Origin: Rhizobium sp. BK602 | GTDB lineage: Bacteria > Pseudomonadota > Alphaproteobacteria > Rhizobiales > Rhizobiaceae | DNA length: 64,000 bases | Direction: 5' to 3' | Assembly (NCBI RefSeq): GCF_014195095.1 | Contig: NZ_JACIBC010000006.1 | Coordinates: forward strand, 62,001-126,000 | Part shown: positions 21,387 through 59,219 of the stretch, one piece after another | Numbering within the stretch: position 1 is the stretch's first letter | Layout: the number at the start of each line of letters is the position of its first letter | Program-made: the position numbers and the translations under genes | The notes under the pieces: model-generated | Database searches by the model: none | Seen by the model: only the letters and a program-made list of their open reading frames with translations | Told to the model about the DNA's origin: nothing

Positions 21387-21468
21387 TTCGTTTGGCAACG
21401 CCCTTGTGCAAGAAACGGGTGGTTTTGCCCGTCTCTTCGTGGTGTTCTCCTTTTTAAGGAGAAAGATT

Positions 21469-22341
21469 ATGAATGCCATCGCACAGCTGAAGAAAGACAT
21501 CACGCCGGAAGGCCCCGATTACGACATCGTCCGCCGGGTGATCGAGCTCATCACCGAGGATTATCGCGACCAGCCGTCGCTGGAGACGATCGCGGCGGAG
21601 CTCGGCCAGTCGCCGACGCAGTTGCAGAAGACCTTCACCCGCTGGGCCGGCCTGTCGCCCAAGGCCTTCCTGCAGGCCGTCACGCTGGATCACGCCAAGC
21701 GGCTGCTGCGCCAGGAAGATTTGCCGCTGCTCGAAACCTCGTTCGAGGTGGGTCTTTCCGGTCCAAGCCGGCTGCACGATCTCTTCGTCACGCATGAGGC
21801 GATGTCGCCCGGCGAATGGAAGGCGAAGGGCGGCGGGCTGACCATCCGCTACGGCTTCCATATCTCGCCCTTCGGGCACGCCCTGATCATGGCCACCGAC
21901 CGTGGTCTTGCCGGCCTTGCCTTCAGCGACACCGGTGACGAGAAGGCCTGCCTGGAGGACATGACCTGCCGCTGGCCGAATGCGCAATATGTCGAGGACC
22001 TGCAGGCGACCATGCCCTATGCGGCGCGGATTTTCGAGCCGTCGAAATGGTCGAGCGACCAGCCGCTGCGCGTGGTGCTGATCGGCACGGATTTTCAGGT
22101 GCGTGTCTGGGAAAGCCTGCTGAAGATCCCGATGGGCCGGGCCGTCACCTATTCCGATATCGCCCGGGATATCGGTCAGCCCACAGCCATGCGCGCCGTC
22201 GGCGCCGCCGTCGGACGCAACCCGATCTCCTTCGTCGTCCCTTGCCACCGGGCGCTCGGCAAGAATGGCGATCTCACCGGCTATCACTGGGGCCTGACGC
22301 GCAAGCGGGCGATGCTGGGCTGGGAGGCGGGGAAGGCTTGA
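21469..22341 (+). CDS. Ada-like protein: AraC-type HTH fused to O6-alkylguanine-DNA alkyltransferase
   Basis: A 290-residue fusion. Residues about 20-110 form an AraC-type DNA-binding domain (DQPSLETIAAELGQSPTQLQ). Residues about 120-285 form the methyltransferase, with the acceptor Cys in VVPCHRALG. The N-terminal four-Cys zinc domain of E. coli Ada, which senses methylphosphotriesters, is missing. It should therefore repair O6-methylguanine and may regulate genes by another cue. AAGGAG at 21456-21461 supports the ATG at 21469. Confidence 0.92.
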   Translation: MNAIAQLKKDITPEGPDYDIVRRVIELITEDYRDQPSLETIAAELGQSPTQLQKTFTRWAGLSPKAFLQAVTLDHAKRLLRQEDLPLLETSFEVGLSGPSRLHDLFVTHEAMSPGEWKAKGGGLTIRYGFHISPFGHALIMATDRGLAGLAFSDTGDEKACLEDMTCRWPNAQYVEDLQATMPYAARIFEPSKWSSDQPLRVVLIGTDFQVRVWESLLKIPMGRAVTYSDIARDIGQPTAMRAVGAAVGRNPISFVVPCHRALGKNGDLTGYHWGLTRKRAMLGWEAGKA

Positions 22342-22436: not shown

Positions 22437-23084
22437 CTATTCGGCTTGAACTGTGGCGCTGCCGCCAGCGTCATCCAGGTACAGGCTGACCAGCCGGATA
22501 AGTTCGCTCTGCACTATGGGGCTCGCCAACATGTTACGGCGCGCGGCATTGTGTATCACCCCGTCAATCGCATCGGAAATGATCAGCGCAGCGGTTTGAT
22601 CGGTCCTGCGAGGCTGGTGGTTTCGATAGATAGCGACAGCCTCTGCATAGTAGCCGAGATATTCGATTTCGAATGCACTGTTGGGATTGCGATAGTCGTC
22701 CGAGCTCGGAGCTTCATCGAGCAATACCCTGTGAAGTCCGGGGTAGATGCTATGGGCGGCGATCATGGCGTGAACGAGGCTCGTTGCGAATTGCACGGGC
22801 GACAACCCTTTGGCTTTGAATTTCCGCATGACGGCGAGGCAGTCGTCGAGATGCCGCTGGCGGATGGCATCGACCAGAGAAAGCTTGTCCGGAAAATACT
22901 GGTATAGCGAGCCGATGCTCACGCCGGCCAAATCTGCGACCCTGTTGGTCGTGAACCCCGCCCATCCTTCATCGCTCAAAATGCGAGCGCCAGCCTGAAG
23001 GATCGTTTCGACCGTCGCGCGGGAACGGGCCTGTCGCGGCCGCTTGCGCATTACCGGCGGCTGCTTTGCAATGCGAGTAGACAA
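22437..23084 (-). CDS. TetR family transcriptional regulator
   Basis: A 215-residue TetR protein with its helix-turn-helix at about residues 20-65 (RATVETILQAGARIL, then AGVSIGSLYQYFPDK). The longest frame starts with a TTG at 23084 preceded by GAGGGGAG four bases away; an ATG at 23051 is the alternative but has a poor ribosome site. It is divergent from the DinB-like gene, and a perfect 25-bp palindrome at 23102-23126 sits 18 bases upstream of the TTG. It is likely to repress itself and dinB. The inducer is unknown. Confidence 0.9.
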   Translation of the reverse strand: MSTRIAKQPPVMRKRPRQARSRATVETILQAGARILSDEGWAGFTTNRVADLAGVSIGSLYQYFPDKLSLVDAIRQRHLDDCLAVMRKFKAKGLSPVQFATSLVHAMIAAHSIYPGLHRVLLDEAPSSDDYRNPNSAFEIEYLGYYAEAVAIYRNHQPRRTDQTAALIISDAIDGVIHNAARRNMLASPIVQSELIRLVSLYLDDAGGSATVQAE

Positions 23085-23101
23085 AGGACTCCCCTCGTAC
23101 A

Positions 23102-23126
23102 GAATGTGAGTAATTTACTCACATTC
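23102..23126. promoter_or_regulatory. perfect 25-bp palindrome, operator of the TetR/DinB pair
   Basis: GAATGTGAGTAA (23102-23113), one central T, and TTACTCACATTC (23115-23126) are exact reverse complements. It lies alone in the 66-base space between the divergent genes. Length and symmetry fit a TetR dimer operator controlling both directions. Confidence 0.8.
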
Positions 23127-23150
23127 CGAAAACTTGGAAGGGCCGTCCTC

Positions 23151-23657
23151 ATGAGTACATTCCTGCAAAAACTTTACGCCTATCATGCTTGGGCCAATCA
23201 TGACCTGTTCGACAAATTGGGGGCTTTGGATCAGGAGCAGCACAAGACCGAGCTGCACACCGCCTTGCGACTGATCAACCATTATTATGTCGTGGCTCGA
23301 ATCTTTGCCGCACATCTAACCGGTTCGCAGCACGGTTATACTTCCGACAACACCGACGAGACGCCAACTCTGGGCGATCTGCGTGCGGCCGTAGCCTCTT
23401 CCGATCAGTGGTATCTCGATTATCTTCGCGGCAGCTCGTCCGAGACGCTGGCCGAGGCGGTCCCGTTCACCTTCACGGATGGCGACAAGGGCTATATGAC
23501 CAGAGAAGAAATGCTGACCCATGTTGCCCTGCATGGCGGCTACCACCGGGGCGAGGTCGGACGGATGCTCTGGCAACTTTCCGTCACGCCGCCTTGGGAC
23601 ACCTTTGCCGTCTATCTTCACCAGAGCGAGCCGGCGCGGCGGCGGCAAGGTGGCTAG
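23151..23657 (+). CDS. DinB family protein
   Basis: The 168-residue four-helix-bundle protein carries the DinB/YfiT pattern of three metal-binding His: one in YAYHAWANHDLF near residue 10-15 or in RLINHYYV, and the pair in HVALHGGYHRGEVG near 125-135. These proteins are metal-dependent thiol transferases or unknown stress proteins. A GTG at 23106 is in frame but would lie inside the operator palindrome, so the ATG at 23151 is preferred. It is controlled in all likelihood by the divergent TetR protein. Confidence 0.88.
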   Translation: MSTFLQKLYAYHAWANHDLFDKLGALDQEQHKTELHTALRLINHYYVVARIFAAHLTGSQHGYTSDNTDETPTLGDLRAAVASSDQWYLDYLRGSSSETLAEAVPFTFTDGDKGYMTREEMLTHVALHGGYHRGEVGRMLWQLSVTPPWDTFAVYLHQSEPARRRQGG

Positions 23658-23723: not shown

Positions 23724-24713
23724 TCAAGCCGCCTTCGCCATCGCCATTTGCAGCAGCGCCTTGGCGGCACTTTCATCGGTGATCAGCGTATTGCAGCCGA
23801 TGCGCTTGATGGTGGCGCTGATGGCGAGCGCGCGGTGGGCGCCGCCGGAGGCGATGACGATGTGCTTGGCTTTCTTCAGCGTGTCGAGGTCGACGGACAT
23901 GACGCGCTTGTTGATCGGATGGTCGACGGAATTGCCCTCGGCATCGAGGAAATTGAACATGGTGTCGCAGACGCAGCCGGCTTCGATCAGCTGGTCCAGC
24001 TCGCGTTTCGAGATGAAGCCTTCCGACAGCGACGTGGAGTGCGGGCCGATGTCGCCGCAACTGACGATGGCGAGATCGAGGCTTTCGGCCAGCCGGTAGA
24101 TCGCCTCCAGCCCGCATTTTTCGATAAGATTGCGCTTGGTCTCGATGGAATCGACCAGAAGCGGCGCCAGGAACATGTAGCATTCGGCGCCGAGCTGGCT
24201 CGCCAGCCGCCAGGTGTAGTCGATCGGGTTGGTCTGGTGGACGGCGACGATGCCGCCGAGCAGCGAGACCACCTTGCAATTGTCGCGATGAGGGGGACGG
24301 AAGCTGGCGAGCGAGGCCGTCATCGTCCGGCCCCAGCCGACGCCGATCGTATAGCTGTCCGGGATCGCTTCCGTCAGGAACTGGCCGAGCGCCAGGCCGA
24401 CGCTTTTTGCCTGCGCGTTGACGTCGCCGCCGGCCGGTGCCGGAACGACGATCGCCTCGTCGAGCCCATAGGTGCGCTCCAGCTTGATCGCCAGCTCGAC
24501 GCAATCGTCGATGCCCTCGTTGATCCAGATCTGCACCTCGCTGCGGCGCATCGCCTCGTCCAGCAGGCGGATGACGGTGGTGCGGCTGATGCCGAGCTGC
24601 TCGGCGACGTCCTTCTGCGTCAGGCCCTGATTGTAATAGAGCCAGGCGGCGCGCAGCCGCAAGGAAGCCGTCTCGGAATAGGCAGTGTGTGTCCCGCGTC
24701 TGAGTTTGGCCAC
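23724..24713 (-). CDS. SorC/DeoR-family sugar-binding transcriptional regulator
   Basis: A 329-residue SorC-type regulator with the helix-turn-helix YYNQGLTQKDVAEQLGISRT near residues 25-50 and a C-terminal sugar-phosphate-binding domain. GGAGGA directly upstream sets a GTG start at 24713; longer in-frame starts add a Pro-rich tail unlike the family. It is a paralogue of the regulator at 8911-9864. It is divergent from transaldolase with a 486-base gap containing a palindrome at 24804-24820, so it may control tal or an unlinked sugar operon. Confidence 0.9.
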   Translation of the reverse strand: MAKLRRGTHTAYSETASLRLRAAWLYYNQGLTQKDVAEQLGISRTTVIRLLDEAMRRSEVQIWINEGIDDCVELAIKLERTYGLDEAIVVPAPAGGDVNAQAKSVGLALGQFLTEAIPDSYTIGVGWGRTMTASLASFRPPHRDNCKVVSLLGGIVAVHQTNPIDYTWRLASQLGAECYMFLAPLLVDSIETKRNLIEKCGLEAIYRLAESLDLAIVSCGDIGPHSTSLSEGFISKRELDQLIEAGCVCDTMFNFLDAEGNSVDHPINKRVMSVDLDTLKKAKHIVIASGGAHRALAISATIKRIGCNTLITDESAAKALLQMAMAKAA

Positions 24714-25199
24714 AGGTCCTCCGGCAAGATGTACGCCCGCCCTTACATGAATGATCGCGAGCGGCAAAGGTTGCGGCGATCGGGCGGCGGCGGGCTGCAA
24801 GATCATAGAGATATTCTATGGCTTGAAACTTATGTCAATTGAAATGCACAAATGTCCTTGACTTTTCGCGGCGAGATTGATGATAGTCGCCTCAAGGAAT
24901 TCGGTCTTTGTCCAAGCGAGGAGGACAATGTGCGAGCGCTGCGCCGTGGACGTGTCTGGCTGGACAGGGAGCCATATAGGGCGCTCTCGCCCGGAGAACA
25001 GCCTCTCCCCGGACAGTCGTCCCGTCATGGCGTCGACCGTAGGCCGGAAATGGAACTTTCGCGGTTTTTCTCCCGTTATCCAGTCAAAGGAGACGGTAGG
25101 GCGTAATGCGTCTGCGGTCTTCGTGTCGTCCATCAACCGGGCGGTATCGCCGGTCAACATCTCCCATCCAATGGGCTTCATTCAACAAGGATATGTATT
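24714..25199. other. 486-base gap between the SorC regulator and transaldolase
   Basis: It holds the inverted repeat at 24804-24820, a possible minus-strand -35 (TTGACA as its complement at 24834-24839), and a small open frame 24928-25203 with a strong ribosome site. No RNA gene or repeat was recognised. Confidence 0.6.
24804..24820. promoter_or_regulatory. candidate operator of the divergent SorC regulator
   Basis: CATAGA (24804-24809) and TCTATG (24815-24820) flank GATAT. The repeat lies about 90 bases upstream of the regulator's GTG start, next to a TTGACA on the minus strand, a position that fits autoregulation. Confidence 0.4.
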
Positions 25200-34566: not shown

Positions 34567-34723
34567 CCTTCTCCCCAACGGGGAGAAGGTGCCCGTCAGG
34601 GCGGATGAGGGGGCGAGGAGCGCAGCGACGAGGGCTTTGAGCGGCAAGCGAAAGGCAACTCTTCCTATGCCGAGCCACCCCTCATCCGACCCTTCGGGCC
34701 ACCTTCTCCCCGAGGGGAGAAGG
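34567..34723. repeat. RIME-like palindromic intergenic repeat, copy 1
   Basis: It begins CCTTCTCCCC/GGGGAGAAGG (34567-34589) and ends with a matching hairpin CCTTCTCCCC/GGGGAGAAGG near 34702-34723. The inner part GAGCGGCAAGCGAAAGGC is almost identical in the copy at 59067-59219. This is the layout of the Rhizobium-specific intergenic mosaic element. Confidence 0.82.
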
Positions 34724-48266: not shown

Positions 48267-48293
48267 ACATTGACCTATCCTCTTGCGACAAAA

Positions 48294-48321
48294 GGGCTTC
48301 CCACGACGGGAAGCCCTTTTT
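48294..48321 (+). terminator. rho-independent terminator of emrAB
   Basis: GGGCTTCCC (48294-48302) and GGGAAGCCC (48308-48316) pair perfectly around ACGAC, followed by five T. Confidence 0.9.
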
Positions 48322-51044: not shown

Positions 51045-51169
51045 CCCCTCACCGTGCCCTCTCCCCGAGGGGAGAGGGATACCGAGCTTGTGGCAGCCGC
51101 CCATACCTCTCCCCTCGGGGAGAAGGTGGCCCGCCCTTCGACAAGCTCAGGAGGTCGGATGAGGGGGCG
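51045..51169. repeat. RIME-like palindromic intergenic repeat, copy 2
   Basis: It carries CCCTCTCCCC/GGGGAGAGGG (51058-51079), a second hairpin CTCTCCCC/GGGGAGAAGG (51116-51126) and the common CCTTCGACAAGCTCAGG segment, ending GGATGAGGGGG. It is shorter and more divergent than copies 1 and 3. It lies between xylB and xylA. Confidence 0.75.
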
Positions 51170-54060: not shown

Positions 54061-54096
54061 TGTAAACCTTTACACTCCATATGTAAAGGTTTACAT
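54061..54096. promoter_or_regulatory. paired LacI-type operators in the divergent promoter region
   Basis: TGTAAACCTTTACA (54061-54074) and TGTAAAGGTTTACA (54083-54096) are exact reverse complements 8 bases apart. Each arm is itself a TGTAAA/TTTACA palindrome, so two LacI dimers could bind side by side, 36-95 bases from the two start codons. Confidence 0.75.
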
Positions 54097-59061: not shown

Positions 59062-59066
59062 TTTCT

Positions 59067-59219
59067 CTTCTCCCCAGCGGGGAGAAGATGTCCGAAGGAC
59101 AGATGAGGGGGACGAGGAGCGTCGCGACGAGTGCCTTGAGCGACAAGCGAAAGGCTGTGTCCGCTGAAATCCCCCTCATCCGACCCTTCGGGCCACCTTC
59201 TCCCCGCTGGGGAGAAGGA
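59067..59219. repeat. RIME-like palindromic intergenic repeat, copy 3
   Basis: It starts with CTTCTCCCCAGCGGGGAGAAG (59067-59087, listed here as two arms of ten around one base) and ends with CCTTCTCCCC/GGGGAGAAGG (59197-59219). Its middle closely matches copy 1. It separates the isomerase and dehydrogenase genes. Confidence 0.82.

Follow-up and report, generated by a model that had tools for sequence, protein, structure and literature searches.

The locus analysed here raises a simple question: what controls a divergent gene pair encoding a TetR-family regulator and a DinB-fold protein, and is the perfect palindrome lying between the two genes the whole of its operator? For TetR regulators, an operator lying between divergent genes is textbook knowledge, and the preliminary description of this DNA cast the palindrome as the sole control element of the pair. 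That part of the claim is not supported, as two additional copies of the operator half-site, C and D, both strongly conserved, are found inside the tetR coding sequence.

The divergent pair and its intergenic palindrome

The regulator gene, tetR, occupies positions 22437-23084 on the minus strand and encodes 215 amino acids. Its product matches two Pfam models, TetR_N (PF00440; E 2.8e-12, 46.7 bits against a cutoff of 24) and TetR_C_15 (PF17918; E 3e-9, 38 bits against a cutoff of 26.8), and no named TetR equivalog (RutR, KstR, BetI, ScbR and others) was reached at the NCBIfam cutoff, the best being an ScbR-type model at 49.8 bits against 150. Translation is likely to begin at a TTG codon (23082-23084), as proposed earlier; the proposal is supported by the aligned start codons of relatives, which read ATG in 45, TTG in 29, GTG in 11 and CTG in one of 86 distinct loci. 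Directly before the TTG stands the purine-rich sequence GAGGGGAG (23089-23096, minus strand), which resembles a Shine-Dalgarno element. The partner gene, dinB, runs in the opposite direction (23151-23657, plus strand) and encodes a 168-residue protein of the DinB/YfiT fold. As the preliminary description had it, the two are separated by 66 bases (23085-23150), counted from the tetR start codon to the dinB ATG at 23151.

Also as described, this space holds a perfect 25-bp palindrome at 23102-23126 (no strand assigned), whose arms GAATGTGAGTAA and TTACTCACATTC are complementary at 12 of 12 positions around a single central T, with 17 bases between it and the tetR start codon. We refer to its two half-sites, read in the tetR sense on the minus strand, as L (23116-23125, AATGTGAGTA) and R (23103-23112, TACTCACATT). 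The Shine-Dalgarno-like sequence falls between R and C. Among 30 copies of the window (the whole 64-kb stretch of DNA that was analysed) generated by a first-order Markov model, inverted repeats with arms of at least 12 bases and gaps of at most 8 arose at a mean of 0.2 per copy, and the real window has repeats with such arms at four separate places, the palindrome among them. The palindrome is above chance, yet it is not the window's sole repeat of its length. The other three perfect inverted repeats with arms of at least 12 bases lie within 630-659, 48290-48320 and 54063-54093 and are possibly terminators. The 25-mer pattern of the palindrome occurs once in the window when up to 3 mismatches are allowed, and its 17-base core occurs once in the 6.3-Mb genome with up to 2. 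Exact matches to the half-site consensus AATGYGAGYR number six in the window, four of them inside 146 bases; relaxing the match to one mismatch reveals no enrichment across the window (18 found versus 32 expected). Promoter and terminator scans of the sequence gave matches at chance level only.

Conservation of the pair and of the palindrome

A search of genome contigs returned at least 80 TetR relatives, and the 80 listed, combined with 12 loci from a search of 297 genomes of the family and less 6 identical ones, make up the 86 distinct loci used throughout. Among the matches listed, 77 of the 80 TetR relatives have a divergent dinB relative upstream (in one of the 77, L091, dinB is seen only as a short matching stretch), and three (L036, L073 and L111) have none. 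A close TetR (E 4.1e-66 or better) is present in 12 of the 297 genomes, and these are the same 12 genomes that hold the closest DinBs, each beside the TetR. Seven further genomes encode DinBs of 40-45% identity, and this TetR is absent from the stretch fetched around them; two of the seven have a distant TetR-like match of 25-27% identity, and the best L-R match near the seven DinBs has at least 6 mismatches. A strict L-R-C pattern is found in 6 of the 297 genomes, each time adjoining a close TetR match by coordinates.

Alignment of the intergenic region in relatives placed a palindromic L-R element at the same position in 80 of the 86 distinct loci. Because L-R is kept in so many of these loci, the pair without its palindrome, which would have spoken against the operator proposed earlier, is not the pattern seen. 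Records naming Rhizobium, Agrobacterium, Mesorhizobium and further taxa, some of Pseudomonas, Acidovorax and Chromobacterium among them, hold the pair together with its element, so the earlier proposal of a TetR/DinB pair with a local operator-like palindrome is borne out across the genera listed. The arms are 3 bases apart in 76 of these 80 loci. In the 80 loci with the element, L is the better-kept arm, matching AATGYGAGYA in 79, and R is looser, its most frequent form being TGTTTATATT (31 loci). Perfect 12-base arms recur, among the matches listed, only in the two closest relatives, L032 and L033. As far as these alignments go, the perfection of the arms is a local feature, the arms being mostly imperfect elsewhere and the right one drifting. 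Conservation thus gives good support to L-R as the likely main operator of a local TetR.

One locus stands apart from the rest: in L036 the tetR gene is 76% identical, there is no dinB match and no L-R, and C is exact, as if the neighbour had recently been lost.

Two further half-sites within the tetR coding sequence

On the tetR side the half-site recurs twice, each time oriented as the right arm. Half-site C (23070-23079, minus strand; TACTCGCATT in the tetR sense) covers tetR codons 2-5 and lies 33 bp from R, and half-site D (22980-22989, minus strand; CGCTCGCATT in the tetR sense) covers codons 32-35 and lies 90 bp from C. In the tetR relatives, the bases after the variable start codon are nearly fixed as TCT ACT CGC ATT, and C is exact in 73 of the 86 distinct loci. 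The codons chosen there are unusual for the genes that contain them: serine is TCT in 80 of 83 cases at C versus 5% elsewhere in the same tetR genes, threonine is ACT in 85 of 85 versus 6%, and isoleucine is ATT in 77 of 82 versus 23%. The distance from R to C is 33 or 34 bp in 62 of 80 loci, 27-32 or 35 in others, and 48-49 in four similar Mesorhizobium loci (L087, L089, L090 and L091), the last because these carry about 15 added bases between R and the tetR start; the addition resembles a duplicated right arm. Where L-R is missing from a DinB-group locus, C tends to be degraded too, being imperfect in 4 of 6 such loci versus 9 of 80 with L-R (p 0.004, a value that ignores kinship).

With at most one mismatch allowed, 73 of 86 loci have a half-site where D stands. 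For codon 33, 83 of the 86 use GCT and 3 use ACT, codon 34 is CGC, CAC, CAT, CGT or CGG, and codon 35 closes with TT in all but one (85 of 86) though its residue is isoleucine or valine, so that the codons around D read [N]GCTCRYRTT, which is the half-site again. The third position is T in 86 of 86 loci at codon 33 and 85 of 86 at codon 35, while the amino acids vary between alanine and threonine and between isoleucine and valine, respectively. When all 206 codons of the 86 tetR genes were scored for third-position conservation, the top five were codons 3, 33, 35, 2 and 5, with scores of 2.1-2.6 against 1.7 for the next codon and a mean of 0.52. Between -300 and +620, no place other than L, R, C and D has the half-site, at the same limit of one mismatch, in as many as 5 of the 86 loci, and within the dinB gene the half-site, with at most 2 mismatches, is found at any one position in at most 10 of 79 loci. 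C and D carry the same half-site as the main operator and, by the measure of codon choice, are conserved beyond what the protein code demands; judging from this pattern, selection seems to maintain both within the coding sequence of the repressor itself.

The same layout in other TetR relatives

Family searches supplied a further 58 loci in which a TetR relative has other neighbours. L-R (at most 4 mismatches, gap of 2) is present in 32 of these and, when the 32 are aligned on L-R alone, C (at most 1 mismatch) follows R by 12-14 bp in 29, as against a mean of 0.05 and a maximum of 1 in shuffled downstream sequence. In these non-DinB TetRs, C is probably non-coding and mostly in front of the likely ATG, because an in-frame ATG comes closely after C in most of the loci. 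D again lies in rare codons, which by class read GCT CGC ATT, GTT CAG GTT or ATT CAG GTT. In a phylum-wide sample the layout was kept in some loci and absent in others. The same genome also encodes six weakly related TetRs; four of them (L159-L161 and L163) could be aligned and show neither element, and L162 and L164 gave no alignment.

C and D are found together. A class-blind rule applied to 79 loci finds D in 61 of the 65 that have C and in 5 of the 14 that lack it (p 5e-6). In 24 held-out loci from a later class-wide search, two of them DinB-type and some of them near-copies, D is present in 13 of 13 with C versus 4 of 11 without (p 1e-3); both statistics ignore kinship. The link was weaker (45/2 versus 21/11, p 6e-4) in an initial coding of C that took no account of the classes, and the four held-out loci with D but no recognised C count against a strict C-D pair.

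Several smaller features of the layout were noted. The gap between the arms is 3 bases in the DinB group (79 of 80) versus 2 in other TetRs (52 of 53), in a comparison of loci whose L-R has at most 3 mismatches and for which gaps of 2 and 3 were tried; this amounts to a one-base shift of half-site spacing within one subfamily. The spacings from R to C (13 versus 33/34) and from C to D (90, 101, 110, 115) have a hint of helical phasing, with some values that misfit. In the held-out locus L205, R and D share the same unusual half-site, TGCTCAGATT, and C reads AACTCGGATT, a match between operator and coding copy that is specific to that locus.

A helix-turn-helix residue that partly tracks the half-sites

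Residue 47 in helix 2 of the TetR helix-turn-helix (TTNRVA), which we take to align with the base-contacting Arg28 of TetR, tracks one base of the half-site. Outside the DinB group, TetRs with asparagine at this position (N47) have C as that base in 24 of 28 loci at L, 26 of 28 at R, 30 of 30 at C and 29 of 30 at D; those with threonine (T47) have T in 10 of 10, 9 of 10, 19 of 19 and 18 of 19, respectively; and those with alanine (A47) have C in only 1 of 15, 0 of 15, 0 of 14 and 2 of 15. The DinB group, N47 throughout, has base C in 79 of 80 loci at L, 85 of 86 at C and 85 of 85 at D, and at R has T in 61 of 80 and C in 19. The co-variation is partial. In held-out T47 loci L, R and C each fit in 4 of 4, but D fits in no more than 2 of 5, failing in L206-L208, which are near-copies, and on the tree the link amounts to about two independent switches, both in the expected direction and without significance, because two independent pairs are too few.

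Likeness within a residue class was assessed at three variable positions against shuffled partners, with kinship ignored. R is closer to the D (p 0.001) and the C (p 0.018) found beside it than to those of shuffled partners, and the likeness of C to D is not significant (p 0.056). Taken together, the tracking of residue 47, this within-class likeness and the joint decay of L-R and C point to TetR itself as the protein that reads the half-sites, D being the one of the four for which this is least certain.

We would tentatively generalise these observations, in a form to which we give slightly less than an even chance, to a proteobacterial TetR subfamily with an auto-operator of four half-sites, one of which (two in the DinB group) would lie in the regulator's own coding sequence under synonymous-codon selection. 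The DNA copies, in most cases also the one within the helix 1 codons, would have changed together with the helix-turn-helix contact residue, so that the protein and operator codes would co-evolve in the same bases.

A model for autoregulation and its alternatives

The reading that we favour, and consider reasonably probable from the comparative sequence data, is that TetR controls its own gene through four operator half-sites, two of them intragenic, of which C and D would serve to tighten repression of tetR. TetR dimers on the palindrome L-R would repress both tetR and the divergent dinB, and further TetR subunits would contact C, where tetR begins, and D, some 100 bp into the gene, recruited cooperatively with the L-R dimer, by looping, or acting as a road-block; these extra subunits would make the autorepression of tetR tighter. 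Some compound would then release TetR from its sites and induce DinB, a member of the DinB/YfiT, S-transferase-like superfamily, which probably acts on the inducing compound or its product. The weakest point of this mechanism is that C and D have no visible inverted mate. A TetR dimer normally wants one, and none was seen when mates of C and D were sought by eye. The placement of C and D in conserved parts of the TetR protein also counts against an operator reading.

Under a different reading L-R alone is the operator, with C and D kept for reasons of protein or translation (the N-terminal peptide MSTRI, AT-rich early codons, or inertia of codon choice) and resembling the half-site by chance. 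C does encode a conserved peptide in the DinB group, rare AT-rich codons are common near start codons, D is part of the stretch encoding helix 1, in the conserved DNA-binding domain, and it is D that departs from L, R and C in three held-out T47 loci. We nevertheless regard such an explanation as unlikely, since the sequence and spacing of C are kept in 29 of 32 TetRs where it probably stands before the start codon, D stays in rare codons while the amino acids at 33 and 35 change, and C and D are lost and kept jointly.

Alternatively, the half-sites may act as RNA or as elements of the dinB promoter. In a tetR transcript starting upstream of L, L could pair with either R or C, and an L:C hairpin would hide the start codon. 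The complementarity of L and C in the 80 DinB-group loci is high (a mean of 9.68 of 10 pairs, G-U allowed), and predicted minimum-energy folds form the L:C pairing in 42 of the 80 and the L:R pairing in 32, leaving L with neither partner in 6. Such complementarity is trivial, however, if one protein reads both sites, and outside the DinB group it fades: the class-switch position is paired between L and C in only 4 of 15 A47 loci, and T47 loci average 6.44 of 10 L:C pairs. A switch of this kind would also leave D unexplained, and of the explanations considered here it seems to us the least probable. Only a little more credible, and still improbable, is a role for C and D as upstream activating or promoter sites for dinB, bound by TetR as an activator or by another factor. 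In the dinB sense, R, C and D do form tandem AATGYGAGYR copies upstream in one orientation, and a weak -35/-10 match begins at 23078, overlapping C by two bases, but promoter matches of this quality are at chance level (1 found versus 0.7 expected). Moreover, in a handful of further TetR loci that carry C and D, the upstream open reading frame, read by eye, looked like a short-chain dehydrogenase, methyltransferase or hydrolase; the sites therefore do not belong to dinB as such.

Relation to known regulators

Auxiliary operators inside coding sequence are familiar from lac O2 and gal OI. The autoregulatory arrangement with four half-sites would resemble them in placing a repressor site within a gene of the regulon, at least about 100 bp from the main operator, and would differ in that the sites here are half-sites alone, lie in the repressor's own gene and are kept across many species. 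Like tetR/tetA and mexZ/mexXY, the locus pairs a divergent regulator and target with a palindromic operator between them, an organisation from which autorepression is expected; unlike these, it has two more conserved half-sites in the regulator's coding sequence. MexZ is described as a divergent TetR repressor module of this type in passages of a published account (PMC9736018), where the TetR-family proteins RutR and Vibrio alginolyticus LuxR are also said to bind inside open reading frames, and QacR and EthR to bind as pairs of dimers or as an octamer. For none of these four do those passages (PMC9736018) describe lone half-sites under codon-level selection in the regulator's own gene. PA3973, considered as a match to the present element, was rejected, as its motif in the same source (PMC9736018), SAAGRNMTGAACG, is unrelated. 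Among the matches listed, open-access literature on operator strings, TetR/DinB, directly repeated half-sites, TetR operators within genes and DinB chemistry contained no recognisable report of the element, and likewise no account of conserved half-sites in a TetR's own coding sequence.

If the proposal is true, a coding sequence doubles as the binding site of its own product, in a manner that can be traced through many genera. It would account for otherwise odd codon choices and provide a motif by which local TetR regulons could be predicted, and it would open the role of intragenic half-sites for TetR regulators to direct test. For the DinB pair in particular, a proposed regulator and operator offer a route to the inducer, and then to the substrate in an enzyme family about which little is understood.

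The DinB partner

The partner protein matches PF05163 (E 1.4e-19, 71.1 bits against a cutoff of 23), and its AlphaFold2 model, with a mean pLDDT of 94.6, finds DinB/YfiT proteins as its top PDB matches (2p1a, 2qe9, 6iz2 and 3di5; TM about 0.54-0.68), the E value being below 0.001 for the best match only. The nearest solved folds include YizA, DR0053 and a mycothiol S-transferase with zinc. In Pfam family and fold, the protein is like the DinB/YfiT (S-transferase-like, STL) superfamily that includes BstA, YizA and mycothiol S-transferase, from which it differs by its low identity (11-19%) to the ten solved structures that match best. His44, His128 and His132 are among the residues invariant in 32 aligned DinB relatives, and across 79 relatives His44 and His132 are kept in all and His128 in 78.

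The host presumably uses glutathione, so the thiol of this DinB, if it has any, would differ from those of known STL members. The histidines follow an H...HxxxH pattern like that of Bacillus subtilis BstA, whose three conserved residues H67, H160 and H164 are proposed to hold a metal (PMC5815605). The same source describes the bacillithiol transferases of the BstA family as metal-dependent (PMC5815605). Detoxification linked to a thiol would be a plausible role for this DinB, and the self-contained sensor-effector unit of the preliminary description is likewise a putative one.

Neighbouring genes and dispersed repeats

The tetR/dinB pair is flanked by an Ada-like fusion of AraC and O6-methylguanine-DNA methyltransferase (21406-22341) and by a DeoR/SorC-type regulator (23724-24806). 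Among 111 loci, some with short flanks, these flanking genes were matched only in the window's own copies and in L032 and L033. Since they are matched nowhere else, both probably lie outside the tetR/dinB unit.

Elsewhere in the window, five similar short palindromes of the form CCTTCTCCCC...GGGGAGAAGG, at 34567-34589, 34702-34723, 51057-51078, 59066-59088 and 59196-59218, probably represent one dispersed repeat family.
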